Part shown: in pieces, positions 40,675 to 56,170 of the stretch
How positions within the stretch are numbered: position 1 is the first letter of the stretch
Layout of the letters: each line of letters opens with the position of its first letter
Assembly: GCA_002712005.1 (NCBI GenBank)
Contig: PASP01000001.1
Location: 136,590 to 200,589, forward strand
DNA length: 64,000 nucleotides
Origin: Halobacteriovoraceae bacterium
GTDB lineage: Bacteria; Bdellovibrionota; Bacteriovoracia; Bacteriovoracales; Bacteriovoracaceae
Direction: 5' to 3'
Translations under genes and position numbers: made by a program
The notes under the pieces: generated by a model
Databases searched by the model: none
The model's input: the letters and a program-made list of their open reading frames with translations, nothing else
What the model was told of the DNA's origin: nothing

Positions 40675-42177
40675 CTACCACTGCTGAAACGTTCTTAGAA
40701 TCACTTTCACCCTTCCTTCGAAGTGAGAATCGAGCAGGCAGATGAGAATATAGATAAGATAAATCATATTTCTACTTGAGCGAAAGCGACTCATTGTTTG
40801 AAAAATAAGCTCTAGAGGTATCAAGCTAAGTGTCGTCAGCATCCACATGATAGAGAATCCACCGAAAATACCTGAGCCCGTAACTAAGTTAAACAAAGAA
40901 AGAATTACTACGCTTACACCGGTATATCTAAGATAATCTTTATCCAGCTTGAAGTTCTTAAGAAGAGACCAGTTAAAATCTTTATAAACCATAAATCCTA
41001 AAATCAATCCCAATGGTGAAAGGGCAAAGAATGCTTTTCTTTGAAAGATAGTTGAGATTTCTTCTAAGTAACTATGTCCTAAATTTATCATTGAGAAGTT
41101 TCTTGTTGTCGTCACAAGCACAATTAATAGAGAGAGAACAAGGCCAAAACTTGCATAACGAAAGAGCTGTCTTTTGAACCAGTTTGTTTTGTCATTTAAA
41201 AAATAGAAAATCAAAATCAAATGAGGAACCCATAGAGCAAACCACAATTTATTAATGAGAACTCCATACATTCCAACGAGCCCAAAAAATAATCCTGTTC
41301 TGTATGTAGAGCTTCTTATAACCCAGAGAAGGCTCCACACCCATAAAAGTGAATATGTAGTAGTGATAGAAGCACCAAAGTCTGCAACTAAAAGCTTTGT
41401 CCATGACCAGCTTGAAAGAAGTGCAAAGATACCTAATAGGGCCAAGCGTCTAGATAAGATAAAGCGCAATAGGGCATAGAAACAAAATAAAAATAAACCA
41501 AGATTAACAAAGTAGAAATGGAGACTCCATGCAAGTCTAAACAGGTCTTCATACTTTAGAAAAGGGTAGTAATTAACCTTTAAGAAATTCCAATAAATAG
41601 GAGATATATGTTCATTGGGGTCAAAGAATAATTTCAAGGCTTCTTGATTATTTATCGTGGGCAAATCAGGAATAGAAAAAATAAATAGGGTAAGAATCAA
41701 TGTAACGAGAGTTTTCTCAAATGAATCAAGATATCTAAACTCAGTGAAGTTTGAGCTCATTGATTCCCGAATGATCTTCCCTCGAGTTGGCCAAGAATAG
41801 AAAATACCTAGAGAGGCCCATGTTATCCAAAAGGCATTATAAATCCATTTACCTGGTAGATAGCTTAGAAAATTAAAGTATATAAAGAAGAAGAACATTC
41901 CCAAGAAGACTCTATATACAAGTCTGTCCATGGAGCTATTCACTCTAAAATATATTTTTAAACGATGATCGATCTCTTTACCCAAAAAGAACCACTGACT
42001 GCATATAAAGAGGATAAATAGTGAAATCGCTACGGCCTGCAATGCGGGTGAAGCCAACATCGTTTTCGGGATCCAAATAGGTAAAAGAAGGAAAGAAAAG
42101 TATGTAACTACCCGAATTAAAAAGAATTTTGATTTTAAATAGAGGATACCCGACTTAGGGGCTAAAGTATTTGCCAT
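40675..42177 (-). CDS. Polytopic inner-membrane protein, about 500 aa
   Basis: This protein has about twelve hydrophobic helices over its whole length and short charged loops. A loop near residues 170-200 (PTINNQEALKLFFDPNEHIS) is followed by further helices, a layout reminiscent of GT-C fold glycosyltransferases of the PMT/ArnT type, although I see no certain DD or DE motif. I prefer ATG 42177 (MANTLAPKSG) over the ATG at 42249, which would add 24 residues translated from the leader. It lies beside the flagellar/sugar island but on the opposite strand, so a surface-glycan role is only a suggestion. Confidence 0.6.
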   Translation of the reverse strand: MANTLAPKSGILYLKSKFFLIRVVTYFSFLLLPIWIPKTMLASPALQAVAISLFILFICSQWFFLGKEIDHRLKIYFRVNSSMDRLVYRVFLGMFFFFIYFNFLSYLPGKWIYNAFWITWASLGIFYSWPTRGKIIRESMSSNFTEFRYLDSFEKTLVTLILTLFIFSIPDLPTINNQEALKLFFDPNEHISPIYWNFLKVNYYPFLKYEDLFRLAWSLHFYFVNLGLFLFCFYALLRFILSRRLALLGIFALLSSWSWTKLLVADFGASITTTYSLLWVWSLLWVIRSSTYRTGLFFGLVGMYGVLINKLWFALWVPHLILIFYFLNDKTNWFKRQLFRYASFGLVLSLLIVLVTTTRNFSMINLGHSYLEEISTIFQRKAFFALSPLGLILGFMVYKDFNWSLLKNFKLDKDYLRYTGVSVVILSLFNLVTGSGIFGGFSIMWMLTTLSLIPLELIFQTMSRFRSSRNMIYLIYILICLLDSHFEGRVKVILRTFQQW

Positions 42178-42234
42178 ATTACCCGATAATATTAGTACAA
42201 CATTTGACCAACTGTTGTTCTCGTACATTAAATT

Positions 42235-42268
42235 AGGCCGGTACCCCAAATACCGGCCTTTTTTTTTC
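42235..42268 (+). terminator. Strong intrinsic terminator with no evident upstream gene
   Basis: AGGCCGGTA (42235-42243) pairs with TACCGGCCT (42251-42259) and is followed by nine T on the + strand. No + strand gene precedes it; the upstream DNA is the start of a minus-strand gene. It may end antisense transcription or a small RNA. Confidence 0.8.
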
Positions 42269-42417: not shown

Positions 42418-43809
42418 TTGGGTATTTCGTTTGGATCCATTAATACTGGGCTCCCAAAAGATATTGTTAAACAAATCATGGAAGCCGAGAAAATTCCATT
42501 AAAGAAAATGGAATCCCGTAAAGGGAAGTTTGGGGACAAGAAGGCCCTCGTGGATCAATTGACCCAACTTTTTCAAGACCTCAAAGGAAATATTCTCGCA
42601 AATGGTAACTCTCGCTCCCTAAGAGAATTAAAGTACGATACCAATGAAAACCTTGTCGGCGTTACCATTGATAAGAATCTCGCTAGCCCAGCCAACTATC
42701 AATTTGAAGTTGTTAGCTTGGCCCAGAAATCCTCTGCTCTAAGCTCAGGCTTTTCTGATAAAGATGAAAGTTATGTAGGGGTTGGATATATTCAGTACTC
42801 CTTGCCTAATGGTGAAAGTAGAGAGATCTACGTCGACTCAGATAATGCAAGTCTTACAGGTATCGCAAAGCTTATAAATAAAGAATCTAATAATGGTATG
42901 CACGCAACCGTTATTAATGATGGCTCAGGTACAGATACACCTTGGAGACTTCTACTCAGTTTAGATGAAACAGGTGACGGACAAAGAGCAGACTTTCCCT
43001 ATTTCTACTTTGTAGATGGAGAAGAAGACTTATACTTAGAACAAGAACGACCAGCACAAGATGCGGTTATCAAGGTCGATGGGTTTGAGATTGAAGTTCC
43101 AGAAAATAAAGTCAAAGACATTATCCCTGGAGTTACTATTGATCTTAAAAAGGCCAAGCCTGGTGAAGAGTTCTCTCTTAAAGTAAGTGAAGATACAGCA
43201 GCCGTTTCAGATAAAATTAAATCCTTTGTCGATTCGATAAACTCTATTCTGTCCTTTATCAAGCAACAGAATACTCTCGATGAAAATTCAGATACATCTC
43301 GTACATTAGGTGGAGACATCCTACTGCAAACAATCGAAGGTCGATTAAGACGCGTTGTATTCCAAGATGTAGAAACCAGTAAGGGAATGAAAAGAATTGG
43401 AGACATAGGGATTACATTTCAAAGAGATGGTTCCCTAAGTTTAGATCAAAAGAAGTTTGATGCTGTATTAGCCGATGACTACAGCCTCGTATCTGAAGTC
43501 CTCACCGGTAGATTTAAGGAAGATGGAACCAAGAGTAGTGGTTTTATAGATAATCTAAATGAATTTGTCGGTATGGCGCTCAGATTTCCAAATGGAGTAC
43601 TAACTACTCGTAAAAAAGGTCTTGAAAGTAAGATGGACCAAATCGATCGTCGAATCAGTCAAAAACAAAGAATGCTTGAACAGAAAGAAAAGAATTTAAA
43701 AGATAAATTTGCTCGGTTAGAGGGAACAATTGCTCGAATTCAGTCACAAGGAGCCGGTGTATCGGCACTTGGTGCCGCCCCTACTAATGCAGTCACACAA
43801 CTGGGATAA
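42418..43809 (+). CDS. fliD: Flagellar filament cap protein FliD
   Basis: FliD caps the growing filament and folds exported flagellin. The 463-residue protein has the FliD N-terminal domain (GLPKDIVKQIMEAEKIPLKK; ASPANYQFEVVSLAQKSSAL), the beta middle part and a C-terminal coiled coil (KKGLESKMDQIDRRISQKQR). The start is TTG 42418, seven bases after AGGAGGGC. It heads a + strand run with fliS. I found no clear FliA-type promoter in its leader. Confidence 0.93.
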   Translation: MGISFGSINTGLPKDIVKQIMEAEKIPLKKMESRKGKFGDKKALVDQLTQLFQDLKGNILANGNSRSLRELKYDTNENLVGVTIDKNLASPANYQFEVVSLAQKSSALSSGFSDKDESYVGVGYIQYSLPNGESREIYVDSDNASLTGIAKLINKESNNGMHATVINDGSGTDTPWRLLLSLDETGDGQRADFPYFYFVDGEEDLYLEQERPAQDAVIKVDGFEIEVPENKVKDIIPGVTIDLKKAKPGEEFSLKVSEDTAAVSDKIKSFVDSINSILSFIKQQNTLDENSDTSRTLGGDILLQTIEGRLRRVVFQDVETSKGMKRIGDIGITFQRDGSLSLDQKKFDAVLADDYSLVSEVLTGRFKEDGTKSSGFIDNLNEFVGMALRFPNGVLTTRKKGLESKMDQIDRRISQKQRMLEQKEKNLKDKFARLEGTIARIQSQGAGVSALGAAPTNAVTQLG

Positions 43810-43830: not shown

Positions 43831-44238
43831 ATGAGTTATGGTTTAGGTGCATATAAGAAAACATCCATTCACACGGCCAGTAAGGAACAAATCCTACTAA
43901 TGCTTTATCAAGCTGCAATTAAGAATTGTAAGAAAGCGATTGAGGCCATTGAAGCAAAGCAAATTGCTAAAAAAGGTGAATATATTGGAAAGCTCCAAGA
44001 TATTGTTATCGAACTTAATAATAGCTTAGATCACGAAGTTGGTGGACAAGTCGCTGAAGAACTTTCGTCACTTTACGATTACCTATTATATTCCTCTACC
44101 CAGGCTAATATTAAAATTGATAAGGAACCACTTGTTGGATGCCTTCAAGTTTTAAATACCCTTTATGAAGGATGGGCAGAGGCCGTTAAACAAGTTCGTA
44201 AAGAAAAAGGCGCAGCAGCTAAAGAATCTGCAAAGTAG
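43831..44238 (+). CDS. fliS: Flagellin export chaperone FliS
   Basis: FliS binds flagellin in the cytoplasm before export. The 135-residue four-helix protein has the family opening (YGLGAYKKTSIHTASKEQIL followed by LMLYQAAIKNCKKA) and the conserved end (LVGCLQVLNTLYEGWAEAVK). AGGAGG precedes ATG 43831. It follows fliD by 21 bases, the standard fliD-fliS order. Confidence 0.95.
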   Translation: MSYGLGAYKKTSIHTASKEQILLMLYQAAIKNCKKAIEAIEAKQIAKKGEYIGKLQDIVIELNNSLDHEVGGQVAEELSSLYDYLLYSSTQANIKIDKEPLVGCLQVLNTLYEGWAEAVKQVRKEKGAAAKESAK

Positions 44239-44262: not shown

Positions 44263-44670
44263 ATGATTGATAATCTAATTCAAAGACTTCAAGTTTTCAC
44301 AGACCGCTTGGACCAAGGTTCTAAGTGTACATATAATATTCTCAAATCTATCCAGCATGGAGACTGGGATGCTGTAGAGTTTGATACAATCAATCGGGCC
44401 CGTATTCTCAACATCATTGCTACAGATCAAGCTTATATTGAGAAGGTTATTAATAACCTTATTGATGAAGAGGTTACTCCCAGTAATATTAATCTTATTA
44501 AAAGTTGGGCTTTCGACACTCAAGCATGGATTGATAAGACGGCCTATCTTGATGATAAAATCATTGATGCCCTTAATAATTCTAAGGATGAAATCACCAA
44601 AGATCTTGCTGGATTATTTAAATCTAAACAAGCATTTCGAGGCTACAATCTCAACGACGTTACTCGTTAA
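44263..44670 (+). CDS. Small helical flagellar-cluster protein (FlgN/FliT-like)
   Basis: This is a 135-residue all-helical protein without signal or membrane segments (IQRLQVFTDRLDQGSKCTYN; IEKVINNLIDEEVTPSNIN; LINLIKSWAFDTQAWIDK-like region). Its size, helical content and place directly after fliS fit a FliT or FlgN-type export chaperone, but the sequence shows no firm signature. GAGAGGA precedes ATG 44263. An intrinsic terminator follows, so fliD-fliS and this gene form one unit. Confidence 0.65.
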   Translation: MIDNLIQRLQVFTDRLDQGSKCTYNILKSIQHGDWDAVEFDTINRARILNIIATDQAYIEKVINNLIDEEVTPSNINLIKSWAFDTQAWIDKTAYLDDKIIDALNNSKDEITKDLAGLFKSKQAFRGYNLNDVTR

Positions 44671-44714: not shown

Positions 44715-44746
44715 AAAACCGACATAACCTGTCGGTTTTATTTGGT
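44715..44746 (+). terminator. Intrinsic terminator of the fliD-fliS unit
   Basis: AAAACCGACA (44715-44724) pairs with TGTCGGTTTT (44730-44739) around a five-base loop, and further T-rich sequence follows. It stands 45 bases after the FlgN-like gene. Confidence 0.85.
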
Positions 44747-44872: not shown

Positions 44873-45598
44873 ATGATTGGCGAAAACTATAATCAAAATT
44901 TAAAGACAACCCTAAATGGCCAAGGAACGACCATGGAAACTTCAATTGAACAAAATCAAGTTCATGATCAACTCTATGTTAAATACTCAAAGTCTGAGCA
45001 ACCTATTCCTGTGATAAATGGAGTTCATCTTCATTCCATCTATAATCCAGAAAGGGAAGCCAACGGATTTGTTAGCAATCAGCTAGAGGTTCTCAAGTCT
45101 TCAGCTCATATACTTATCTTTGGTCTTGGCTTTGGATATCACATTTCTCAAATTGAAGAAAAAATGAAGTCCTTTCACCCTGGTGGATATCGTATTTTTG
45201 TCATTGAGCCCAATCAATCAATTTTAAATAAATGGGAAGAGTTAAGTCCAAATTCTTTCAGTGAGCATGTTTCTGTAGTTAGCTATGACTCTATTAAAGA
45301 ATTCTATAAAGATAGAGAACTTGTAGACTTCATGTCTTGTAAGCCATCGGTTATCCCTCACCCAGCCTCATTCCAATTAAATATGGGATTTTTTAAAGAC
45401 TTCATGAGTTACAACTATCCTAAAGGGGTTGATGACTCGGCGTACTTTATTGAATCTAAAACTTTTAGAAATTATTTAACATGTGAAAATAAAAATGAAA
45501 CGACTGAAGATTTCTTCGAACGCGTAAGAGGTAAGAGCTTTCTACAAAGCTATGACTTTCTATCATTAGCACTAGCAGAAATGGTTAGCGAAAGATGA
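44873..45598 (+). CDS. Maf-type motility accessory protein, N-terminal domain only
   Basis: Maf proteins transfer nonulosonic (sialic-acid-like) sugars to flagellin in Campylobacter, Aeromonas and others. This 241-residue protein matches the Maf N-terminal region (VINGVHLHSIYNPEREANGF; SAHILIFGLGFGYHISQIEE; IFVIEPNQSIL). The central MptE-like transferase domain that makes full Maf proteins about 600 aa is absent. GGAAGAGGG precedes ATG 44873. It stops at TGA with a TAA ten codons later. It may act with the GT9 enzymes that follow, or it may be a degenerate remnant; the frame is clean, which favours a functional short protein. Confidence 0.75.
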   Translation: MIGENYNQNLKTTLNGQGTTMETSIEQNQVHDQLYVKYSKSEQPIPVINGVHLHSIYNPEREANGFVSNQLEVLKSSAHILIFGLGFGYHISQIEEKMKSFHPGGYRIFVIEPNQSILNKWEELSPNSFSEHVSVVSYDSIKEFYKDRELVDFMSCKPSVIPHPASFQLNMGFFKDFMSYNYPKGVDDSAYFIESKTFRNYLTCENKNETTEDFFERVRGKSFLQSYDFLSLALAEMVSER

Positions 45599-45630
45599 GA
45601 TTTATCTCACATACGTAAAAGGAAATAAAA

Positions 45631-47337
45631 ATGGAAAAAATACTTCTCATCAACTTAAAAAAGTTTGGCGACACATTTCAAAGTGCCCATCTTATCAATA
45701 CGATTAAGACTTTAAACCCAGATACTCAGGTTGATGTTCTTTGCTTTGAAGAAAGTGCAAAAGCGGCAAAAACCCTGAGAGGGATTGGAAATATTTTTAC
45801 GATCAACCGTAAGAAAATCATTTCATTCTATAAGAATAATATCTACTCTGATGGATTAGCTTTTAACGCCTTCCATGAAGCTCTTGAAGATGTCATTCGT
45901 TCAGACTACAGAAGAGTTATCAACTACTCTAATGATAAAGTCAGTACCTATATTTCATCTTACCTCTCAAACTCCATGGAAGCAGAAGTATTTGGTATTC
46001 GTTTTGATTCTAAAAATAGCGTTGTATACTCAGATCCATTTTCAATCATCCTCAACGATGTCAATACAACGACCCACTTCACGCCCTTTAACTTTAACGA
46101 CACCTACCATTACATATGTGGAGTGGAAGGGCATCAAAACTCACAGCTAAAAATTAAGAGTAATTCCTCTCACGATCAAACAGCCGTTGAAAACTTTGAT
46201 CGTCTTAGAGCAACAAAACAAGATCGTTCCGAGGATGTAAATATTGTTGGGATTCAAATATCTTCTGCATCCGCAACAAAAGATATTCCCAAAAAAGTTC
46301 TCATTGAAACGATTCAACTCTTTATCGACTCAGATAATATCGTTCCCATTCTTCTCAATGCTCCCCTAGATGAAGAGCGAGAACTTATAAAAGAAATTAA
46401 CTCAAATTTTGATCATAAACTTGTAAGTGTGGAAGCAGACTTCATAGCTCTTCCTAGCGTTTTAAAAGGCATTAACCTTTTATTAACCCCTGATACATCT
46501 GTAAAGCATGTAGCTGACTTAGTTGGGACACCTTGTCTTGAAGTCTCTCTTGGAGAAGCACCTTTTCTTAAGCAAGGAAGCATCAACCCAAAGAGCGCCA
46601 TCATTTCAAGAGCAGCAAACCTCCGAGTTTTCAAAGAAGGTATTGAAGATAGAGATAGTGTCATCGAACAAAATAGCGCACTACGCCCAGCTCTTATTTA
46701 CCACACAACCCAAGCCCTTATTGGATCTGAACAGAATCTAGATCTTGATGTGGAATTAGATTCAGAGTTTTGTGTTTACCGTCCTAAAAAAGTTCAAACA
46801 GGAACACTCTTTGTTCCTATCTCCGGACCTTTTAAGCCCGAATTTGAAATCAGAAGACTTCTTGCTCGTCCTTTAAGTCTTAAGCTTGCAGGCAGAGAAA
46901 AGACACAAGACCAAAGCATTGAAGAAGTTTATCAGACTATTTACGAGCGATTTGACAGAAGAACGATCTCAAAAGTTGTTAATGAGGAAAAGCATGCTCT
47001 TTCTGATTTAACCAAGGACCTTCTTAGCACTCTAAGAGGATTGATCCAAACTCAAGAAGACAGAAGAAAGGCAACTTACTTTGTTGAAGCCCTTGAAAAA
47101 CTCATCTCTCGTTGCTTTGACAACAGCCTCAGTGCCTTTCCAACTTTATTTTTCAGAGCAAGACTTGAGTCTCTTAACGCAACGTCCCTAGAAGAGAACT
47201 TTAAAGAAGTAGAAGGTCTTCTCTATGACCTGAAGTCTAATTTACAAAATTGCTTCAATATTCTTAAAGAAGTTGAAGATTTCAAAAACAAAGACATGGA
47301 GTCTTCCACTAATATTTCACCAAGAGCTTCGTTATGA
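45631..47337 (+). CDS. GT9-family (heptosyltransferase-like) glycosyltransferase with C-terminal extension
   Basis: The first 350 residues match ADP-heptose:LPS heptosyltransferases of family GT9 (LLINLKKFGDTFQSAHLINT; VNIVGIQISSASATKDIPKK; LLTPDTSVKHVADLVGTPCL). The remaining 200 residues are a helical, charged extension not found in WaaC/WaaF (KHALSDLTKDLLSTLRGLIQ). It lies within the flagellar cluster, next to a Maf-type gene and a second GT9 gene, so the acceptor may be flagellin or a sheath glycan and not lipid A core. The stop overlaps the next small gene as ATGA. Confidence 0.85.
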   Translation: MEKILLINLKKFGDTFQSAHLINTIKTLNPDTQVDVLCFEESAKAAKTLRGIGNIFTINRKKIISFYKNNIYSDGLAFNAFHEALEDVIRSDYRRVINYSNDKVSTYISSYLSNSMEAEVFGIRFDSKNSVVYSDPFSIILNDVNTTTHFTPFNFNDTYHYICGVEGHQNSQLKIKSNSSHDQTAVENFDRLRATKQDRSEDVNIVGIQISSASATKDIPKKVLIETIQLFIDSDNIVPILLNAPLDEERELIKEINSNFDHKLVSVEADFIALPSVLKGINLLLTPDTSVKHVADLVGTPCLEVSLGEAPFLKQGSINPKSAIISRAANLRVFKEGIEDRDSVIEQNSALRPALIYHTTQALIGSEQNLDLDVELDSEFCVYRPKKVQTGTLFVPISGPFKPEFEIRRLLARPLSLKLAGREKTQDQSIEEVYQTIYERFDRRTISKVVNEEKHALSDLTKDLLSTLRGLIQTQEDRRKATYFVEALEKLISRCFDNSLSAFPTLFFRARLESLNATSLEENFKEVEGLLYDLKSNLQNCFNILKEVEDFKNKDMESSTNISPRASL

Positions 47338-47480
47338 AAGATGAAATCATAGAAAAAATTAAAAGAGTTGAAGATAAGCTTGCGAAGGGTCTTCCCCTAG
47401 AACAAGGTGATCATGTTTTTCTTTTTGCTTTAAGCCTCATCAAAGGCAATAAGTCAGAAGATATTCAAAAGCGTGGATAA
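47334..47480 (+). CDS. Small protein between two GT9 genes, 48 aa
   Basis: This is an open frame of 48 residues (MKDEIIEKIKRVEDKLAKG at the start, ending SEDIQKRG). Its ATG overlaps the stop of the first GT9 gene as ATGA, and its TAA lies 20 bases before the next gene. It is amphipathic and helical with no known motif. The tight coupling and similar codon use support a real gene; it may be a small partner of the flanking glycosyltransferases. Confidence 0.65.
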   Translation: MKDEIIEKIKRVEDKLAKGLPLEQGDHVFLFALSLIKGNKSEDIQKRG

Positions 47481-47500
47481 TTAATTACAAGGGATCATAC

Positions 47501-49153
47501 ATGAGTAAGACATTCACTCTCATTCAATTAACGAGACTTGGAGATCTTGTTCAAACCTATCAAGCAGCCAAGGCCCTTAAAGAGATACACCCCGAAGTAA
47601 ATCTTAAACTTATTGCCAGAAAGAACTTTGCTGAATCACTTCATTTCTTATTAAAAGATACTTTTGATGAAATCATACAATTAGACCTAGAATCTCTTTT
47701 CAGCTCAGACCTTTCTACTTACTTACAAAATATTGAATCCTGGACCCAACAAGAGAGCGTTCAAAAAACTGATGTTGTTATTAACCTATCCTTTTGTGAG
47801 CCTTCAAATTATCTCTCCAGTATCATTAATTGTGACCATAAGCTCGGAACAAGAATCGACAGTAACAATAAAGTTATAGTTAAAGATCAGTGGTCTCAAA
47901 TCGTTTACTCAATGGTTATGAATGGCCCTTACTGTCCATTTAACCTAGTTGATATTTATAAAAATATCTTAGGTGTTCCGCCCACTGTGAAAGAAACACC
48001 TGAAATAGAAAAACATTCCATCAAGAAATTGGCCATCCACCCATTTGCTTCTGCAGCTAAGAAGAAGTGGAAGACAAGTAAGTGGACAGAAGTCATATTT
48101 AAATTCTTAAAAGATAATCCCAATGCGGAAGTTCATTTATTTGGTTCTAAAGCAGAAGCGAACGACGCTGGCCTTATCACTAACAGCACTCTTTTAAAAA
48201 AATATTCTTCACGTCTAAAGAGTCATGTTGGTAAATTCAATTTAGAAGAAACCACTAAAAAACTTTCTACTTGTACTCATTTTGTAGGTCACGACTCCCT
48301 TCTTGGTCATTTGGCCAAAACACAAGGACTCCCAACTCTGACCATAGCCTTAGGAACGGTTCGTCCCATGGAGACAACTCCATATGGCCCTCATAGCTAC
48401 GTTTTATCACCTCGATCTAAATGCTACCCTTGCTTTCCAGATACAGAATGTTCTTTCTTTAAGTGCCATGCTGATCTCTCCTATCAGGCGACTTCTGCTG
48501 TCCTTAACCATTTTGTAGAAAAAAGCGAGATAGATCCTAAGGTGATCTATGATGAAATTAGCTCCTTCCATCTCGACTCCTTAGACATCCAAGAATTTGG
48601 TCAATCAGCTACAGGCTGGTACACATTGGAGAAAATCGGTAACGACAGCCCAATTTTTAGAGATTTTATTAGGGATATTTATCGTGTTGCTCTCGCTTTT
48701 AAATTGGAAGAAATCGAAGAGAACTTATCATTTCCTAATTTAAATAAAGAGCACTTAGCAAAGCTTGAACATCTCCAGCAGGGGATTCAGCAATATTATG
48801 AATTATGTGAGTTTGGTAAGAAGTATTCTCGATTCATTCTACAAGAAGTATCAAAAGATGAACCAAATCTCGAAGATATAAAATCTTTTGCAAATAAAAT
48901 CGATGAAGTCGATCGACTACAAGAGCTTCTCAAACAGACCTATAGTGAGCTTGTTCCCATAATTGATTTCTACAAGGTTACAAAATTTAATCTTAGTGGT
49001 GAAAATATTGTGGAACTTAGTGAATCTAGCTATGTCGTATATAATGATAATGCCACAATTTGTTCCGTTTTATACGAACTCTTTGGGCAAACTATAAATC
49101 ACCTCCAAAAGAAATTTGGAGTTAAAGCAATGACCAAGGATGGTAATGCATGA
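47501..49153 (+). CDS. Second GT9-family glycosyltransferase with C-terminal extension
   Basis: This 550-residue protein has the GT9 fold (LIQLTRLGDLVQTYQAAKAL; KLAIHPFASAAKKKWKTSKW; THFVGHDSLLGHLAKTQGLP) and the Cys-containing segment typical of this family (CYPCFPDTECSFFKC). As in the preceding GT9 protein, about 180 C-terminal helical residues are added. The two may have arisen by duplication with divergence, or act in sequence on one glycan. AAGGGAT precedes ATG 47501. The stop overlaps the next gene as ATGA. Confidence 0.85.
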   Translation: MSKTFTLIQLTRLGDLVQTYQAAKALKEIHPEVNLKLIARKNFAESLHFLLKDTFDEIIQLDLESLFSSDLSTYLQNIESWTQQESVQKTDVVINLSFCEPSNYLSSIINCDHKLGTRIDSNNKVIVKDQWSQIVYSMVMNGPYCPFNLVDIYKNILGVPPTVKETPEIEKHSIKKLAIHPFASAAKKKWKTSKWTEVIFKFLKDNPNAEVHLFGSKAEANDAGLITNSTLLKKYSSRLKSHVGKFNLEETTKKLSTCTHFVGHDSLLGHLAKTQGLPTLTIALGTVRPMETTPYGPHSYVLSPRSKCYPCFPDTECSFFKCHADLSYQATSAVLNHFVEKSEIDPKVIYDEISSFHLDSLDIQEFGQSATGWYTLEKIGNDSPIFRDFIRDIYRVALAFKLEEIEENLSFPNLNKEHLAKLEHLQQGIQQYYELCEFGKKYSRFILQEVSKDEPNLEDIKSFANKIDEVDRLQELLKQTYSELVPIIDFYKVTKFNLSGENIVELSESSYVVYNDNATICSVLYELFGQTINHLQKKFGVKAMTKDGNA

Positions 49154-49770
49154 CTCAAGTAACTTTAAACCAAAATCCCTTAAAGAACTCTGTTACCCAG
49201 GATCAGTCTCTAGATGAGCTTGTTAGTTTTATTTTTGACAAAGAAGTGTCAAAAGAAAACATACTCGTTAGTATTAATTTAGATGGAGAGATCATACCTT
49301 TTGAAGATGGTTTAAAAGTGGCAACAGCAAAAGTTTCTTCTTTTAAAGAAATAGATTTCGAAATCAAGTCTTCTGTTGAACTTGCCTATGAAGCATTAGA
49401 TTCCTGTAATGACTATATCGATCTCTTAGTTAAAAAAATTAAATTTCTGACCGATTGCTACAACAAAAACGAGCTCGATCAAGCTAATCATCAATTTACA
49501 GAAGTGATTGATATTTTGGATCTTTATACTCAGCTCTTTGCCAGAATTCATTCCACTCTTAAGAGAAACTTTTCTGGGTCTTTTACCATTAGCGAAGATA
49601 TTCAGAAGCTTGATATCCACCTTCTTTCCATACTTAAGGCCCTAATTCCGGCCAAAGAAAAGGGTGACATCATCATGCTTTGTGACTTGCTGGAGTACGA
49701 ATTAATAGATAATCTGACTCAATGGAAGATCAAAATCGTACCAGCATTGAAAAAAATGAAGGGCAATTAA
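49150..49770 (+). CDS. Unrecognised helical protein, 206 aa
   Basis: This cytoplasmic protein has a short beta-like start (ENILVSINLDGEIIPFEDGL, similar in feel to a ubiquitin-like or carbon-storage fold) and then long helices (IKSSVELAYEALDSCNDYID; QFTEVIDILDLYTQLFARIH). No motif or family is recognised. Its ATG overlaps the GT9 stop and its own end overlaps the kinase gene by 49 bases, so it is translationally tied to both. It could be an adaptor in the glycosylation system or a partner of the kinase. Confidence 0.7.
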   Translation: MTQVTLNQNPLKNSVTQDQSLDELVSFIFDKEVSKENILVSINLDGEIIPFEDGLKVATAKVSSFKEIDFEIKSSVELAYEALDSCNDYIDLLVKKIKFLTDCYNKNELDQANHQFTEVIDILDLYTQLFARIHSTLKRNFSGSFTISEDIQKLDIHLLSILKALIPAKEKGDIIMLCDLLEYELIDNLTQWKIKIVPALKKMKGN

Positions 49771-51446
49771 TAAAGCTCATTTACGAGGATATCTCAGATC
49801 CCTCCGTAATTGGTTTTGATTTTAACCATGACACAAATCAAAAAAATTTAAAAATATCTTTTAACCAAGGTGAATATGATGCGAACTCTAATCAGAGCGC
49901 ATCTATTCTCTCTTGGATTCGCGACCTTTCAAAAGGCCATAAGAATTTCGCACAAACGAACCTTGATTATCTCGATGATTCACGAAAGCAATATTCTTCT
50001 TTCCGTAAAAAACTCCAAAATCAATTAAAGATCATACGCAAAGAGCAAGAAATATCAGGAAAGAATAGGGATAAAATCAACAACTACTTTATCGAAAGTG
50101 AGTATAGAGAGCTCTATAATATTATTCACAACTTACAGAGTCTCCCAAGTTTTCTCCTCACATTAGACGCTTTTAAAAGTTATTCTACCTGCCAAATCAT
50201 CGCTCACGAAAAGGGCAATGCCTTCTCTTCGAGTAATTTTTGTACTGTTTCAGGTAAATCACATGCCAAAAGAATCCCTGTCGAATCTTTTAATAAAGGC
50301 TTCCAATCAATAAAGAAGTCAAAGAGTCATTACTTTCAATCCAATCAACTTCCCGATGAACTCACTGAAGTCATTGGTTATTTTCAAGCACGATCTTTCA
50401 CTGGTAATCGATATAACCTCATTCTCATCTTAGGACGCAATGATATGCTTCCCCCTAATCAAGAAGAATGTAGTCAATTTGAAAAAGTAACTGAACACCT
50501 AGAGCCTGTTTTAAATGCAATTCTTATGCGTTCAGGTCAAGATGATAAGAATTTAAATATTATTGATCTCTTAGAATCTCTTCCCCTACCGATATGTATA
50601 AAAGACCGATCTGAGTCCTATCTCTTTACAAACGATGCTTTCGACAATCTTAAAGAAACTCTTCAAAAGAACTATGACAAAATCGAACAACCTCTGACCG
50701 GTAAAAATACTCTTTGCCTATACTTTGATAAGGCCCTTTCAGAAGAGACTGACCTTTATCACTTCTATCGTGTTACCTTACTTGGTGAACTCTTAAATAC
50801 TCTTCGCCACGAACTTAGTAATCCACTTTTTGGCCTATCATTGGCCAGCGATATGTTGGATGCCTCAGAGCTTTCTGAACAAGACGAAGAAATACACCAA
50901 ACCATTTCTGACATCAAAAGCAATAGCGACCGCTGCCAGACTATTATCAAAAACTTCAGCTCACTCTATGAAGACGAAGACAACTTTAAAGACTTTGATC
51001 TCATTAGCGTAATCAATGAAACTTTGATTTTAACAAAGTCTGAAACAAAAGGTATTCAAAAACATATTTCAAGTTCTGAAGAATCTATTACCCTTTATTC
51101 AAATCCCACTTGGATATCTCAGATAATATTTAATTTAGTTATTAACAGTGGCCAGGCCTTAAAAGAACGATTTGGGGATAACTTAAGGGATGCTGCCATT
51201 CACGTCGTTGTAGAATCACATCATTCCAATATATTAATTCACATAAATGACAATGGACCAGGTGTGCCTGAACTCATACAGGAAAAGCTTTTCAATCCAT
51301 TCTTTACTACTAAAGACTCGGGTACCGGGCTTGGACTATCCATTTGTAAAAACCTCATTCAAAAACTAGATGGGAATATAAGTTACCGAAATTGCAAAAC
51401 GGGTGGCGCTCAATTTTCCCTCTCTCTGCCATTTGTAGCCCTATGA
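49722..51446 (+). CDS. Sensor histidine kinase with PAS-like region
   Basis: This is a soluble 574-residue kinase. The N-terminal half resembles a coiled coil followed by a GAF-like region (about residues 130-280) and a short PAS-like region (PLPICIKDRSESYLFTNDAF). The H box reads LRHELSNPLFGL, the N box NLVINSGQAL, G1 DNGPGVP and the F/G2 region FFTTKDSGTGLGLSI, so all catalytic boxes are intact. It has no membrane segment and so senses a cytoplasmic signal. Its stop overlaps the response-regulator start. The ATG 49722 has no clear ribosome site and lies within the previous gene, implying coupling. Confidence 0.9.
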   Translation: MEDQNRTSIEKNEGQLIKLIYEDISDPSVIGFDFNHDTNQKNLKISFNQGEYDANSNQSASILSWIRDLSKGHKNFAQTNLDYLDDSRKQYSSFRKKLQNQLKIIRKEQEISGKNRDKINNYFIESEYRELYNIIHNLQSLPSFLLTLDAFKSYSTCQIIAHEKGNAFSSSNFCTVSGKSHAKRIPVESFNKGFQSIKKSKSHYFQSNQLPDELTEVIGYFQARSFTGNRYNLILILGRNDMLPPNQEECSQFEKVTEHLEPVLNAILMRSGQDDKNLNIIDLLESLPLPICIKDRSESYLFTNDAFDNLKETLQKNYDKIEQPLTGKNTLCLYFDKALSEETDLYHFYRVTLLGELLNTLRHELSNPLFGLSLASDMLDASELSEQDEEIHQTISDIKSNSDRCQTIIKNFSSLYEDEDNFKDFDLISVINETLILTKSETKGIQKHISSSEESITLYSNPTWISQIIFNLVINSGQALKERFGDNLRDAAIHVVVESHHSNILIHINDNGPGVPELIQEKLFNPFFTTKDSGTGLGLSICKNLIQKLDGNISYRNCKTGGAQFSLSLPFVAL

Positions 51447-51820
51447 ATATATTAATTGTCGAAGATGAGCCTCTTATCGCTCGCAGTTTAAAGCGTTTAC
51501 TTGAAAAAAAAGGATGCACTGTCACATGGGAAAGTAGTGGAAATCAGGCCATCGAAACATTGAAAAAATATGATTTCGACAGGGTCATAAGTGATTTAAT
51601 GCTACAAGACATAAGTGGCTTCGATGTGCTAGAAGAAAGTAAGAAAAAATATACCATTCAAGAGATTGGCGAAAAGTTTATTATCATAACAGCTTATAGC
51701 TCTCAACAAGTTCTAAGCAAGGCAGCAACCTATGGCTGTATTGTTCTAAGTAAACCTTTTGAAGATCTCCATGGTGCTATTGATACCTTCATAAGAGGAA
51801 AGTCGAGTGAGTCAGTCTAA
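51443..51820 (+). CDS. Single-domain response regulator
   Basis: This is a 125-residue receiver with no output domain. The acidic pocket Glu7/Asp8, the phosphoacceptor Asp51 (VISDLMLQD), Thr in IITAYSSQ and Lys in LSKPFED are all present. I start at ATG 51443 (MNILIVEDEP), which overlaps the kinase stop as ATGA; an upstream in-frame start would add sequence read from the kinase gene. Like CheY or Spo0F it must act by protein contact. With its kinase it forms a complete two-component pair in a flagellar cluster. Confidence 0.93.
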   Translation: MNILIVEDEPLIARSLKRLLEKKGCTVTWESSGNQAIETLKKYDFDRVISDLMLQDISGFDVLEESKKKYTIQEIGEKFIIITAYSSQQVLSKAATYGCIVLSKPFEDLHGAIDTFIRGKSSESV

Positions 51821-52724
51821 AGTAAAACTAAATATTAAAAATGTTGGTATTGTACTGAAGCCTAAAGTTGTTAACGAATACACCAGCGTACTTCCCAATT
51901 TAGTATCATGGTTCAAAAAGAGAAAGATCAATGTATCTTTCATTGATTCTGAAGAAGAGCGAGTTAAAAAACTTTTAAAAACAATACCCAAACATATAAG
52001 CTTCCTTTCCCTAAAAGAGCTTCATCACAAAATGGACCTTAATATCACTCTGGGGGGAGACGGTACTTTATTAGGCTTTGCAAGAAACTCAGACAGAAGA
52101 AGTGCTCCTATATTTGGAGTCAACATGGGAACACTCGGATTTATTACGGAGTACGCTAAATCAGAGTTTTTTGAAGGACTAGAGTCTCTCATTATTGGCC
52201 GTTGTGAAGTTGTAAAATTACCTCTCTACAAGGTCGAAGTAAAAAAAGGAAGAAAATCTCTTTTCACCAATCATTTCCTAAACGATACCGTTATTTCAAA
52301 ACACGATATTTCTCGAATGTTTAGTCTATCTGTAGACAACGAGGAAGAGAATATTTTTAATATTTCAGGTGATGGTCTTATTATATCAAGCCCGACAGGC
52401 TCAACAGCTTATTCTTTAGCAGCAGGCGGTCCAATCATTAGTCCCAGAGTCCAAGCTCTCGTTCTTACCCCGATCTGCCCGCATAGCTTAACTCACAGAC
52501 CCATTGTTATCAGTGATAAGCAATCCCTAAAAGTTAAAGTCCCAGCCGATGCAGAAAGCGTAATGCTCACAATAGATGGACAAGAAGTTCAAGAGCTTCC
52601 ATCACGCTGTATTGTTGAAGTTTCAAAATCAAAATCTAAGCATGTAAAGCTTATCGCTAACCCACAAAGAACATACTTTGACACATTAAAGTCTAAATTT
52701 ACTCAAGGTAGGAGATTATTCTAA
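51807..52724 (+). CDS. nadK: NAD kinase
   Basis: NadK phosphorylates NAD to NADP. The 305-residue protein has the catalytic NITLGGDGTLLGFAR motif, the VNMGTLGFITEY segment and the glycine-rich ISSPTGSTAYSLAAGGPII loop. The start is GTG 51807 after AGAGGAAAG, overlapping the end of the response-regulator gene by 14 bases. Its stop shares one base with the recN start. The pair nadK-recN is common in many bacteria. Confidence 0.96.
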   Translation: MSQSKVKLNIKNVGIVLKPKVVNEYTSVLPNLVSWFKKRKINVSFIDSEEERVKKLLKTIPKHISFLSLKELHHKMDLNITLGGDGTLLGFARNSDRRSAPIFGVNMGTLGFITEYAKSEFFEGLESLIIGRCEVVKLPLYKVEVKKGRKSLFTNHFLNDTVISKHDISRMFSLSVDNEEENIFNISGDGLIISSPTGSTAYSLAAGGPIISPRVQALVLTPICPHSLTHRPIVISDKQSLKVKVPADAESVMLTIDGQEVQELPSRCIVEVSKSKSKHVKLIANPQRTYFDTLKSKFTQGRRLF

Positions 52725-54358
52725 TGAAACCTTCTCTTTATTTAAAAAGTCTTTCCCTTAGAAATTTTGCAACCTTTGAAAATCAAGAGATTGATTTTCA
52801 CTCCAAATTCAATGGTATTGTAGGGGAAACGGGTAGTGGAAAAAGTTTAATTCTTGATGCCTTCCAATTACTTCTCGGAGGACGTGCCGATAAAAAACTA
52901 GTACGTAAAGGCGCTGAATGCGCTATGATTGAAGGTGTCTTTGAAGTGCAAGGAGATCGTTTTATTCATTATTTTGATAGCATAGGCTTTCCTATTGCTA
53001 CGGAAGATCAATCCCACCAAGTTGTCATCAAGCGAATCATCTATAGTTCAGGTAAGTCCAAATCATATCTTAATCACATGAATTCTCCCCTCGCCGTACT
53101 AAGTAAATTTAGTAAAACTTTCGTCGACCTCGTTGGACAATTCGAAAATCAAAAACTCACTCAGTCAGATTATCAACTTCATCTGCTCGATCAGTTTGCA
53201 GGTAACGAAAAACTCCTTCAGGGTTATAGCGAGCTCTTTCAAACTTACAAAGAACTTACAAACGAAATCGAATCAATCAAAGAGAACCTAGCGAGTAAAT
53301 CACAAAAAGAAGACTATATTCGCTTTCAAATGCAAGCTTTAGAAAAGCTAGATCCCAGTGTAGAAGATGAGAAAAATCTAATTGCACTAAAAGATCAGCT
53401 TCTCAATAGTGAAGATACTCAAAAAAATCTCGAAGCTCTTAAAGAATACTTCTCAGATGGTGAGGTCAATTTACTCGACCTCTCTAAGCAATGTTCAAAG
53501 CTTTTTGATCATTGCTCTCATCTCTTCTCAGAAGAAGAAAGAACTCAATTTGAATCTCTTATTTCCTCAATTGATGACTTTTCTTACGTTGTTTCAAAAA
53601 CTGATATTGATCTTGATAATGAAATCAATCTAGAGGATGTTCTCGAAAGATTAGATCAATATCAAAAATTAAAACGTAAATTTAACATTGAAACAAATGA
53701 GCTCAAATCTCTTCTTTTTGATTTTCAAGAGCAAATTAATGAACTTGAAAATATTGAAAATCGTTACAAAAGCCTTCTTAAAGAAAGAGATAAACTTGAA
53801 GAGGTTCTTTATTCCAAGGCCACAGACCTTCATAAAAAAAGAAGTCAGTTTTCAAGTAAATTGGCTTCTCAAATTAGTAAAGGACTTGGTGAACTCAATA
53901 TGAATGGCGCTACTTTTGATATTCAAGTTTCTAAATTGAATACTTTAAGCGCTCAAGGTATGTCCCAAGTTAACTTCATGGCCGAAACCAATAAAGGTGA
54001 GGGGTTCTATAAGATCAAAGAAATTGCTTCTGGAGGTGAACTCTCTAGAATTCTCCTATGCCTACGTCAAATTGTAGCTTCAGAAGATACGATTAATATT
54101 TTCTTCTTTGATGAAATTGATACTGGGATAGGTGGAGAAACGGCTACTAAAATTGCGAAGGCCCTTAAAAAAGTTGGCTCCAAAGGACAAGTTCTTGCCA
54201 TTACTCACTTGCCTCAAATTGCTAAAGAAGTTGATGAAATTATTTATGTAGATAAGAAATCTCTATCTAAAGATAAAAATACTCGAACGATAAGTTTTGT
54301 ATCCATCAAAAGAGGTAAGGAAAGAGATGAAGTTATTAATCAGTTGGCAGGGATTTAA
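52724..54358 (+). CDS. recN: DNA repair ATPase RecN
   Basis: RecN is an SMC-like protein that binds DNA ends during double-strand-break repair. The 544-residue protein has Walker A (GIVGETGSGKSLILDAFQLL), a central coiled coil (about residues 160-380), the signature EIASGGELSRILLCLRQI and Walker B (FFFDEIDTGIGGETATKIAK). The length is typical. GGAG stands nine bases before ATG. Its 3' end overlaps the convergent phosphoesterase gene if that gene is read through its internal TGA. Confidence 0.96.
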   Translation: MKPSLYLKSLSLRNFATFENQEIDFHSKFNGIVGETGSGKSLILDAFQLLLGGRADKKLVRKGAECAMIEGVFEVQGDRFIHYFDSIGFPIATEDQSHQVVIKRIIYSSGKSKSYLNHMNSPLAVLSKFSKTFVDLVGQFENQKLTQSDYQLHLLDQFAGNEKLLQGYSELFQTYKELTNEIESIKENLASKSQKEDYIRFQMQALEKLDPSVEDEKNLIALKDQLLNSEDTQKNLEALKEYFSDGEVNLLDLSKQCSKLFDHCSHLFSEEERTQFESLISSIDDFSYVVSKTDIDLDNEINLEDVLERLDQYQKLKRKFNIETNELKSLLFDFQEQINELENIENRYKSLLKERDKLEEVLYSKATDLHKKRSQFSSKLASQISKGLGELNMNGATFDIQVSKLNTLSAQGMSQVNFMAETNKGEGFYKIKEIASGGELSRILLCLRQIVASEDTINIFFFDEIDTGIGGETATKIAKALKKVGSKGQVLAITHLPQIAKEVDEIIYVDKKSLSKDKNTRTISFVSIKRGKERDEVINQLAGI

Positions 54359-55125: not shown

Positions 55126-55176
55126 AAGCCCCAAAGAACCTCCCTAGTGACGGGCATCACTAGGGAGGATGGGCTT
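55126..55176. other. Nested stem-loop in the leader of the LpxH-like gene
   Basis: A perfect 12-bp stem (CCTCCCTAGTGA 55139-55150 / TCACTAGGGAGG 55157-55168) with a six-base loop is enclosed by a second stem AAGCCC (55126-55131) / GGGCTT (55171-55176). On the minus strand the outer stem is followed by TTT, so it can act as a terminator or attenuator before the LpxH-like start. Confidence 0.75.
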
Positions 55177-55294: not shown

Positions 55295-55325
55295 TAAAAG
55301 AGGGGGAGGAGAACCTCCCCCTTTA
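55295..55325 (-). terminator. Intrinsic terminator of flagellin gene 1
   Basis: GGGGGAGG (55302-55309) pairs with CCTCCCCC (55314-55321). On the minus strand TCTTTT follows. It lies about 15 bases after the flagellin stop. Confidence 0.85.
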
Positions 55326-55336
55326 TTTTAGATTAA

Positions 55337-56170
55337 TTATCCGATTAGTCTCATGGCCTGATTAGGTAATGCATTGGCTTGAGATAGTGTAGAGATACCA
55401 GCAGATTTTACAACGTTACTAGCAGCTAGCTTGGCAGACTCTTGAGCTACATCAACATCTTGGATTACAGATCTTGCAGCATCTTGGTTTACAGTTTGAA
55501 CCTCTAAGTTTGATACTGTTGATTCAAGTCTTGATTGAACAGCACCTAGAGTTGCTCGTTGTCCCGATACTTGGTTAATAGCATCATCAATTACACTAAT
55601 TGAATCAAGAGCTGAGTCTTTTGCATCAATTCCCGAACCATCGATTCCAATTGCGGAAGATGAAGCATTCGATTCACTTGAGTCAAATGTAATTTTATTT
55701 TGCTCACCAGCGAAAGCTCCAACTTGAAAATCTACTTCTCCAGAACCTTCACCATTAAGTAACTTAGCACCGTTAAAGGTTGTTGATTCACTAATTCGAT
55801 CAACCTCACTAACGAGTTGCTGATATTCTTTATCGAGGAATCCTCTTTCTTGTTCACCAACAGTATCAGAAGCAGCCTGTACCGTTAATTCTCTCATTCT
55901 TACTAAGATATTTGAGACTTCGTTAAGTCCACCTTCTGCAGTTTGAACAAGCGAGATACCATCATTTGCGTTTCTAGTAGCCTGTCTTAAACCTTTTGTT
56001 TGTGCTTCAAGGTTTGTAGCGATTGCAAGTCCGGCAGCATCGTCAGCTGCTTTTGTAATACGCTTACCACTTGATAGTTTTTCTAGTGATGCATCCGCTT
56101 CGTTAGATACTTGCTTTAAGTTCTTTTGTACCTGTTGTGATGCAATGTTTGTTGCGATTCTTAAGCCCAT
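55337..56170 (-). CDS. fliC: Flagellin, copy 1
   Basis: This is a 277-residue filament subunit with the conserved D0/D1 ends (MGLRIATNIASQQVQKNLKQ; ITKAADDAAGLAIATNLEAQ; TRNANDGISLVQTAEGGLNE at the N side; LSQANALPNQAMRLIG at the C end) and almost no variable D2/D3 region. AAGGAG precedes the ATG. It has its own FliA-type promoter and terminator. A paralogue of the same length lies about 0.7 kb upstream, so the filament is probably built of more than one flagellin, as in Bdellovibrio. Confidence 0.96.
   Translation of the reverse strand: MGLRIATNIASQQVQKNLKQVSNEADASLEKLSSGKRITKAADDAAGLAIATNLEAQTKGLRQATRNANDGISLVQTAEGGLNEVSNILVRMRELTVQAASDTVGEQERGFLDKEYQQLVSEVDRISESTTFNGAKLLNGEGSGEVDFQVGAFAGEQNKITFDSSESNASSSAIGIDGSGIDAKDSALDSISVIDDAINQVSGQRATLGAVQSRLESTVSNLEVQTVNQDAARSVIQDVDVAQESAKLAASNVVKSAGISTLSQANALPNQAMRLIG

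Follow-up and report, generated by a model that had tools for sequence, protein, structure and literature searches.

A stand-alone Maf N-terminal domain and two extended GT9 glycosyltransferases beside fliD: a candidate flagellin glycosylation system of Bdellovibrionota

Introduction

Why should a flagellar locus carry the N-terminal domain of a Maf glycosyltransferase on its own, next to two GT9 enzymes with long extensions, and what might these proteins modify? The question is raised by a 64,000-nt stretch of contig PASP01000001.1 from a Halobacteriovoraceae bacterium (hereafter the window, to which positions refer unless a locus is named), whose 3.96 Mb genome belongs to the Bacteriovoracaceae, a family that includes Bacteriovorax and Halobacteriovorax records. 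Flagellin glycosylation by Maf and by FlmG, a TPR-glycosyltransferase of Caulobacter, is established (PMC7591256), and GT9-like BAHT enzymes are known to put heptose on protein (PMC4358343). A first-pass annotation of the window had suggested decoration of flagellin or of the flagellar sheath with heptose-like sugars, under control of a dedicated kinase and receiver. Since a Maf-derived part and complete GT9 active sites come together here at a flagellin/fliD locus, we regard flagellin glycosylation by a cytoplasmic split Maf/GT9 system of Bdellovibrionota as the best reading, and we hold it with moderate confidence.

Gene order and transcription

A compact unit running from the Maf_N gene to a receiver gene sits between fliD-fliS-fliT and nadK-recN:

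42418..43809, + strand: fliD, filament cap and anchor of the locus (PF07195, E 7.5e-49; PF02465)
43831..44238, + strand: fliS, flagellin export chaperone (PF02561, E 2.4e-37)
44263..44670, + strand: FliT/FlgN-like chaperone (weak PF05400 match, E 0.015; positional homologues after fliS in most relatives)
44715..44739, + strand: terminator-like hairpin in the fliT/Maf_N gap, a 10-bp stem followed by a T-rich tail
44873..45598, + strand: Maf_N, stand-alone Maf N-terminal domain of 241 aa (PF20157 in relatives; alignment to full Maf)
45631..47337, + strand: GT9a, GT9 glycosyltransferase with a C-terminal extension of ~200 aa (PF01075; WaaC residues; clade)
47334..47480, + strand: p48, conserved 48-aa microprotein (ORF in the GT9a-GT9b gap; dN well below dS)
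47501..49153, + strand: GT9b, GT9 glycosyltransferase with a predicted helical extension of ~200 aa and a Cys4 motif (PF01075; AF2 model)
49150..49770, + strand: p206, 206 aa, predicted beta-grasp-like N-terminal part and four-helix bundle, no family (AF2)
49722..51446, + strand: soluble histidine kinase (HisKA, 2.4e-9; HATPase_c, 6.8e-20)
51443..51820, + strand: single-domain response regulator (PF00072, E 1.3e-18)
51807..52724, + strand: nadK, housekeeping, joined to the unit at its 3' end (PF20143/PF01513)
52724..54358, + strand: recN-like ORF, housekeeping, overlapping the nadK stop (named by reading the ORF; homologues follow nadK in relatives)
55337..56170, - strand: flagellin, the probable substrate (PF00669, E 3.7e-42; PF00700)

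The Maf_N gene is followed by GT9a at +32 nt. From there on the genes overlap or nearly abut as far as nadK, as the first-pass annotation had read them, with spacings of -49 to +20 nt (GT9a/p48 -4, p48 to GT9b +20, GT9b/p206 -4, p206/kinase -49, kinase/receiver -4, receiver/nadK -14), and nadK and recN overlap in turn (-1). That annotation's account of the products has likewise held: a Maf protein lacking its transferase domain, two GT9 enzymes with extensions of similar size, unrecognised proteins of 48 and 206 aa and a soluble kinase are what closer analysis returned. The gap between the fliT and Maf_N genes measures 203 nt and holds the terminator-like hairpin, which suggests that the unit is probably transcribed separately from fliD-fliS-fliT.

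Two further observations concern the surroundings. Divergent from fliD, at 40675-42249 on the - strand, lies a gene for a 524-aa protein without Pfam match, which almost every Bacteriovoracaceae locus has kept. Two strong hairpins, GC-rich and each followed by a T-rich tail, stand at 55139-55168 and 55299-55324, around the flagellin 3' end and a calcineurin-like phosphoesterase gene.

Distribution in the phylum

Among 34 neighbourhoods mapped with the window proteins, nearly all Bacteriovoracaceae have the order fliD-fliS-fliT-Maf_N-GT9a-GT9b-p206-kinase-receiver-nadK-recN. Some ten other families, including the Bdellovibrio-like f6/g83, have the order fliD-fliS-fliT-TPR protein-Maf_N-GT9-GT9-p206-kinase-receiver, so the island's conservation beside fliD extends well beyond the family of the window. 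A Maf_N profile search gave matches in 122 of 291 genomes of the phylum, every one of which also has FliD (the lists being compared by eye). Where both positions were available, Maf_N lay on the fliD contig in 86 of 87 genomes, at a median distance of 2.7 kb; in the sole exception (G176) the Maf_N contig ends just upstream. All counted protein parts are present in 45 of 70 fliD loci from across Bdellovibrionota, f6/g83 again included, a proportion that is not a phylum survey as these loci were picked by matches or to probe exceptions. The same gene order in dozens of relatives indicates that the arrangement is more than chance. In the same 70-locus table some lineages with flagella have a single GT9 or lack GT9s altogether; together with the loss of catalytic residues from GT9a in some Bacteriovoracaceae, this indicates that the modification is not essential everywhere.

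A Maf domain without its transferase

The window's Maf_N matches PF20157 weakly (13.9 bits against a cut-off of 23.5, E 0.038). The same profile matches 16 of 29 Maf_N relatives at E <= 0.1, the best at 1.1e-6, and the Maf_N profile aligns to the N-terminal half of full-length Mafs of the same phylum (hhalign probability 93%, E 2.7e-7). PF01973, the MptE-like catalytic domain of Maf, has no match in Maf_N nor anywhere in the window's genome, and comparison of Maf_N with PDB sequences gave no meaningful match. In the 122 genomes Maf_N is practically always a short ORF of ~200-250 aa; this size, kept phylum-wide, rules out the relic of a recently truncated gene.

Maf_N and the a-type GT9 travel together: across the 70 loci their co-occurrence was 53/1/1/15 (both, only one or the other, neither). 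The Fisher p of 3e-13 overstates the case, since it ignores shared ancestry and treats related genomes as independent. Where Maf_N is missing, the locus in most cases retains just a b-type or another non-a GT9 (L059, L064, L166 and families f8, f15 and f20), and the single GT9 of L100 is a-type and accompanied by Maf_N. In family f9 the Maf_N profile finds nothing, and a canonical 612-aa Maf with both PF20157 and PF01973 stands directly before flagellin-fliD-fliS. Based on this distribution, it looks as if the GT9 enzymes replaced the transferase of Maf while its N-domain was retained. The full-length f9 Mafs are found at L149:2702-9000 and L152:8859-15040, with no GT9 match nearby.

Genome G035 has a second Maf_N-GT9a pair (L107:7202-9462), which lies away from fliD, beside a cluster of ATPase, inner-membrane-protein and prepilin genes such as belong to type II secretion or type IV pili. 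Several WaaC-equivalent residues are gone from the GT9a of this pair.

Two GT9 paralogues apart from the LPS enzymes

GT9b matches PF01075 with 61 bits (E 1.4e-16), and GT9a scores 21-22.9 bits, at the 22-bit cut-off; 19 of 27 relatives match. Both window enzymes keep the WaaC donor-site residues D13/K192/E222/D261/H266. D13 is kept in all GT9b (15/15), second-position (18/18) and first-position (19/19) sequences and in 12 of 15 GT9a; active-site residues are being lost from GT9a in part of the Bacteriovoracaceae. The AF2 model of GT9b (pLDDT 88.6) has a GT-B fold that starts directly with the GT-B N-lobe, and VIA-align superposes it on WaaC 2h1f with Z 25.0 and rmsd 3.5 over 288 aligned residues (Z 24.7-26.2 across GT9 structures).

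The ~200-aa extensions of GT9a and GT9b are paralogous and can be aligned over their whole length (full-length hhalign 99.9%, E 6e-33). That of GT9b is predicted to form a small beta unit and then long helices, in keeping with the helical character first ascribed to both; in structure searches with the whole GT9b model the matches fall to its GT-B domain. Profile comparison of the extension with p206, with FliT and with the N-terminal part of the kinase showed no homology. In trees one clade (100/97) unites the first-position GT9s from all families and another (91/87) the second-position GT9s, the latter less tidy once single-GT9 loci were added. As each clade spans families, the duplication probably predates them, on the evidence of these trees.

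Two side observations concern individual copies. In genome G001 the GT9b gene (L052:8029-9679) is in two ORFs, a frameshift-like break that is natural or an assembly error. In family f12, fliD-fliS-fliT-TPR is followed by a single extended GT9 (L070:8924-10594) with degenerate-looking donor-site motifs, possibly a pseudo-enzyme.

GT9 enzymes are mostly LPS heptosyltransferases, and the island enzymes share with WaaC, WaaF and WaaQ the family, the fold (Z 25) and the donor-site residues. They might thus equip the flagellar sheath with a specialised LPS core or a glycan of the outer membrane, their proximity to fliD being mere co-regulation, and Bdellovibrio flagella are indeed sheathed (PMC2791853). 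We consider this decidedly unlikely. The island GT9s do not cluster with WaaC/WaaF, a result that, with a lack of conservation beside fliD, would have told against the first-pass reading: they branch apart from E. coli WaaC/F/Q and from four other GT9s of the window's genome (island-versus-LPS split 78/81), and trees that include E. coli WaaC/F/Q/U together with the remaining GT9s of the genome disfavour a role as LPS-core enzymes. GT9b falls far under the WaaC and WaaF equivalog cut-offs (47.8 and 37.7 bits against 185 and 135). The ~200-aa extension is absent from E. coli WaaC/F/Q/U, which are 319-357 aa long (the genome's other GT9s are 329-408 aa). The flagellar neighbourhood also sets the island enzymes apart, and the Maf-derived partner and the neighbouring chaperone genes suggest a protein acceptor.

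The small proteins and the kinase pair

Wherever a Bacteriovoracaceae locus has intact GT9a and GT9b genes with a gap between them, that gap holds a p48 ORF; 18 loci from other families have one too, and the two sets align (hhalign E 1.5e-4). Comparison inside the genus gives a dN clearly lower than dS, pointing to purifying selection, with dS partly saturated. The conserved position and the dN/dS relation together rule out a chance ORF. Neither p48 nor p206 has a family match, and p206 shows no consistent Pfam match among relatives. The AF2 model of p206 (pLDDT 92.5) combines a beta-grasp-like part, absent from some orthologues, with a four-helix bundle, and the motif DLLEYELxDNLTQWKI is conserved. 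The model superposes on FliS 6gow_E (Z 9.4, rmsd 3.0, 104 aligned) about as closely as on generic helical bundles, and p206 as a FliS or HPt homologue is not supported, its structural matches being generic bundles.

Hydropathy shows no transmembrane segment in the kinase (highest Kyte-Doolittle mean over 19 residues, 1.04), and its HisKA/HATPase domains with the phospho-accepting H363, kept in 27 of 27 aligned homologues, together with the adjacent receiver domain, identify a two-component pair. The pair is absent from the otherwise complete loci L058, L065 and L104 (in L058 and L065 nadK directly follows p206), and in the 70-locus table it is retained, with p206, where Maf_N and GT9a are lost. 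The link to the enzymes is therefore positional only; control of the sugar system by the pair, as first envisaged, is not supported and is only a possibility.

These distributions bear on another explanation, in which Maf_N, the GT9s, p48 and p206 would be mainly binding or regulatory proteins forming a checkpoint on flagellin assembly that feeds the kinase and receiver, while catalysis would be of lesser importance or gone. The retention of p206 and the pair without Maf_N and GT9a would suit such a role, as would the predicted four-helix bundle of p206 and the degenerate state of some GT9a and single-GT9 copies. Most GT9 copies, however, retain their donor-site residues, and the pair itself is missing from three loci; we regard a checkpoint as unlikely.

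Sugar donor and acceptor

Of 59 genomes, 58 carry an HldE-type gene, the window's included, which makes ADP-heptose a plausible donor. The ADP-heptose pathway also serves LPS. Maf enzymes transfer nonulosonic acid to Ser/Thr residues of flagellin; the nonulosonic acid synthase NeuB is absent from several island-carrying genomes, which weakens nonulosonic acid as an obligatory donor.

Flagellin genes are usual neighbours of the unit as well. The calculated flagellin mass of close relatives is ~29 kDa, and in Bdellovibrio, flagellins 274-282 aa long migrate at 29-31 kDa (PMC2791853, Table 1), so filaments would carry at most small sugars. Of the heptose-like decoration first proposed for flagellin or the sheath, glycosylation of flagellin stands as the best reading and heptose fits the HldE-type gene; we found nothing for the sheath as target. 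Flagellin as acceptor, the O-linkage and heptose as the sugar are what we infer from these observations.

Alternatively, the target might be another exported flagellar protein, such as FliD, the hook or clients of FliT/FliS. The unit comes after fliD-fliS-fliT, and the L107 pair beside secretion or pilus-like genes may serve other substrates. Against this, the usual flagellin neighbours point to flagellin, on which Maf and FlmG both act (PMC7591256), and the L107 GT9a lacks WaaC-equivalent residues. To this alternative we assign a small probability.

Discussion

Flagellin glycosylation by a split Maf/GT9 system, the reading that we prefer, might proceed as follows. Newly made flagellin would be O-glycosylated in the cytoplasm, before export, by the two GT9 enzymes of GT-B fold. 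Their catalytic domains would use a nucleotide sugar as donor, with ADP-heptose the likeliest, and the helical extensions at their C-termini are the probable binding sites for the acceptor protein. Separated from the transferase part of Maf, the Maf N-domain would be the accessory partner of GT9a, hence a "split Maf"; GT9b and p206 would form a second, separable module, and p48 probably bridges or regulates both GT9s. These roles, like any role of the kinase-receiver pair, are suggested by position, conservation and predicted structure. A more specific version, in which the catalytically empty Maf domain targets flagellin for GT9s that attach heptose, with p48 and p206 as partners, would be the first case of flagellin heptosylation and also of flagellar glycosylation by GT9 enzymes; we advance it only tentatively and think it has somewhat less than an even chance of being correct. 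In the open-licence papers searched we found no flagellin heptosylation, no glycosylation of Bdellovibrio flagellin and no account of this locus; a report elsewhere is possible.

The nearest comparison is with Maf itself (PF20157 plus PF01973), which shares the N-domain and the position beside flagellin/fliD and which, in full-length form, holds the flagellin-fliD-fliS locus in the related family f9. Here, in contrast, there is no MptE-like catalytic domain, two GT9s are at the locus and NeuB-type synthesis is not consistently present. FlmG (PMC7591256) resembles the proposed system as a GT-B enzyme with a helical protein-binding part, and families outside the Bacteriovoracaceae have a gene for a TPR protein between fliT and Maf_N. 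TPR and transferase are, however, separate proteins here, the window's family has no TPR gene at the locus, and the FlmG sugar is pseudaminic acid, unlike the heptose proposed here.

The BAHT enzymes (TibC/AAH) are protein-directed and of related GT-B fold, GT9b superposing on TibC with VIA-align Z 17.0 and rmsd 4.0 over 256 aligned residues. Both TibC (C339-342-358-370) and GT9b (CxxC-x5-C-x4-C) have four cysteines, with different spacing, and GT9a lacks the motif. TibC has an N-terminal beta-barrel and forms a ring dodecamer (PMC4358343), whereas the extension of GT9a and GT9b is C-terminal and helical. Of the features that mark the BAHT group, neither GT9a nor GT9b has the TibC spacing of the Cys4 motif, and the GT9b model, which opens with the GT-B N-lobe, has no N-terminal beta-barrel.

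With p48, a microprotein, and p206 the locus contributes two protein families that are conserved but unannotated. The Bdellovibrio-like g83 carries the locus, and the genetically tractable B. bacteriovorus, whose fliS is bd0612 (PMC9140294) and whose fliC1/2 are Bd0604/0606 (PMC2791853), may serve for its study if the locus is present there. If our reading is correct, the GT9 class would join Maf and FlmG among the known flagellin glycosylation enzymes, the locus would give a hint at what the Maf N-domain does alone, and flagellin modification, of which the open-licence papers searched held no description in predatory bacteria, would be part of their biology.
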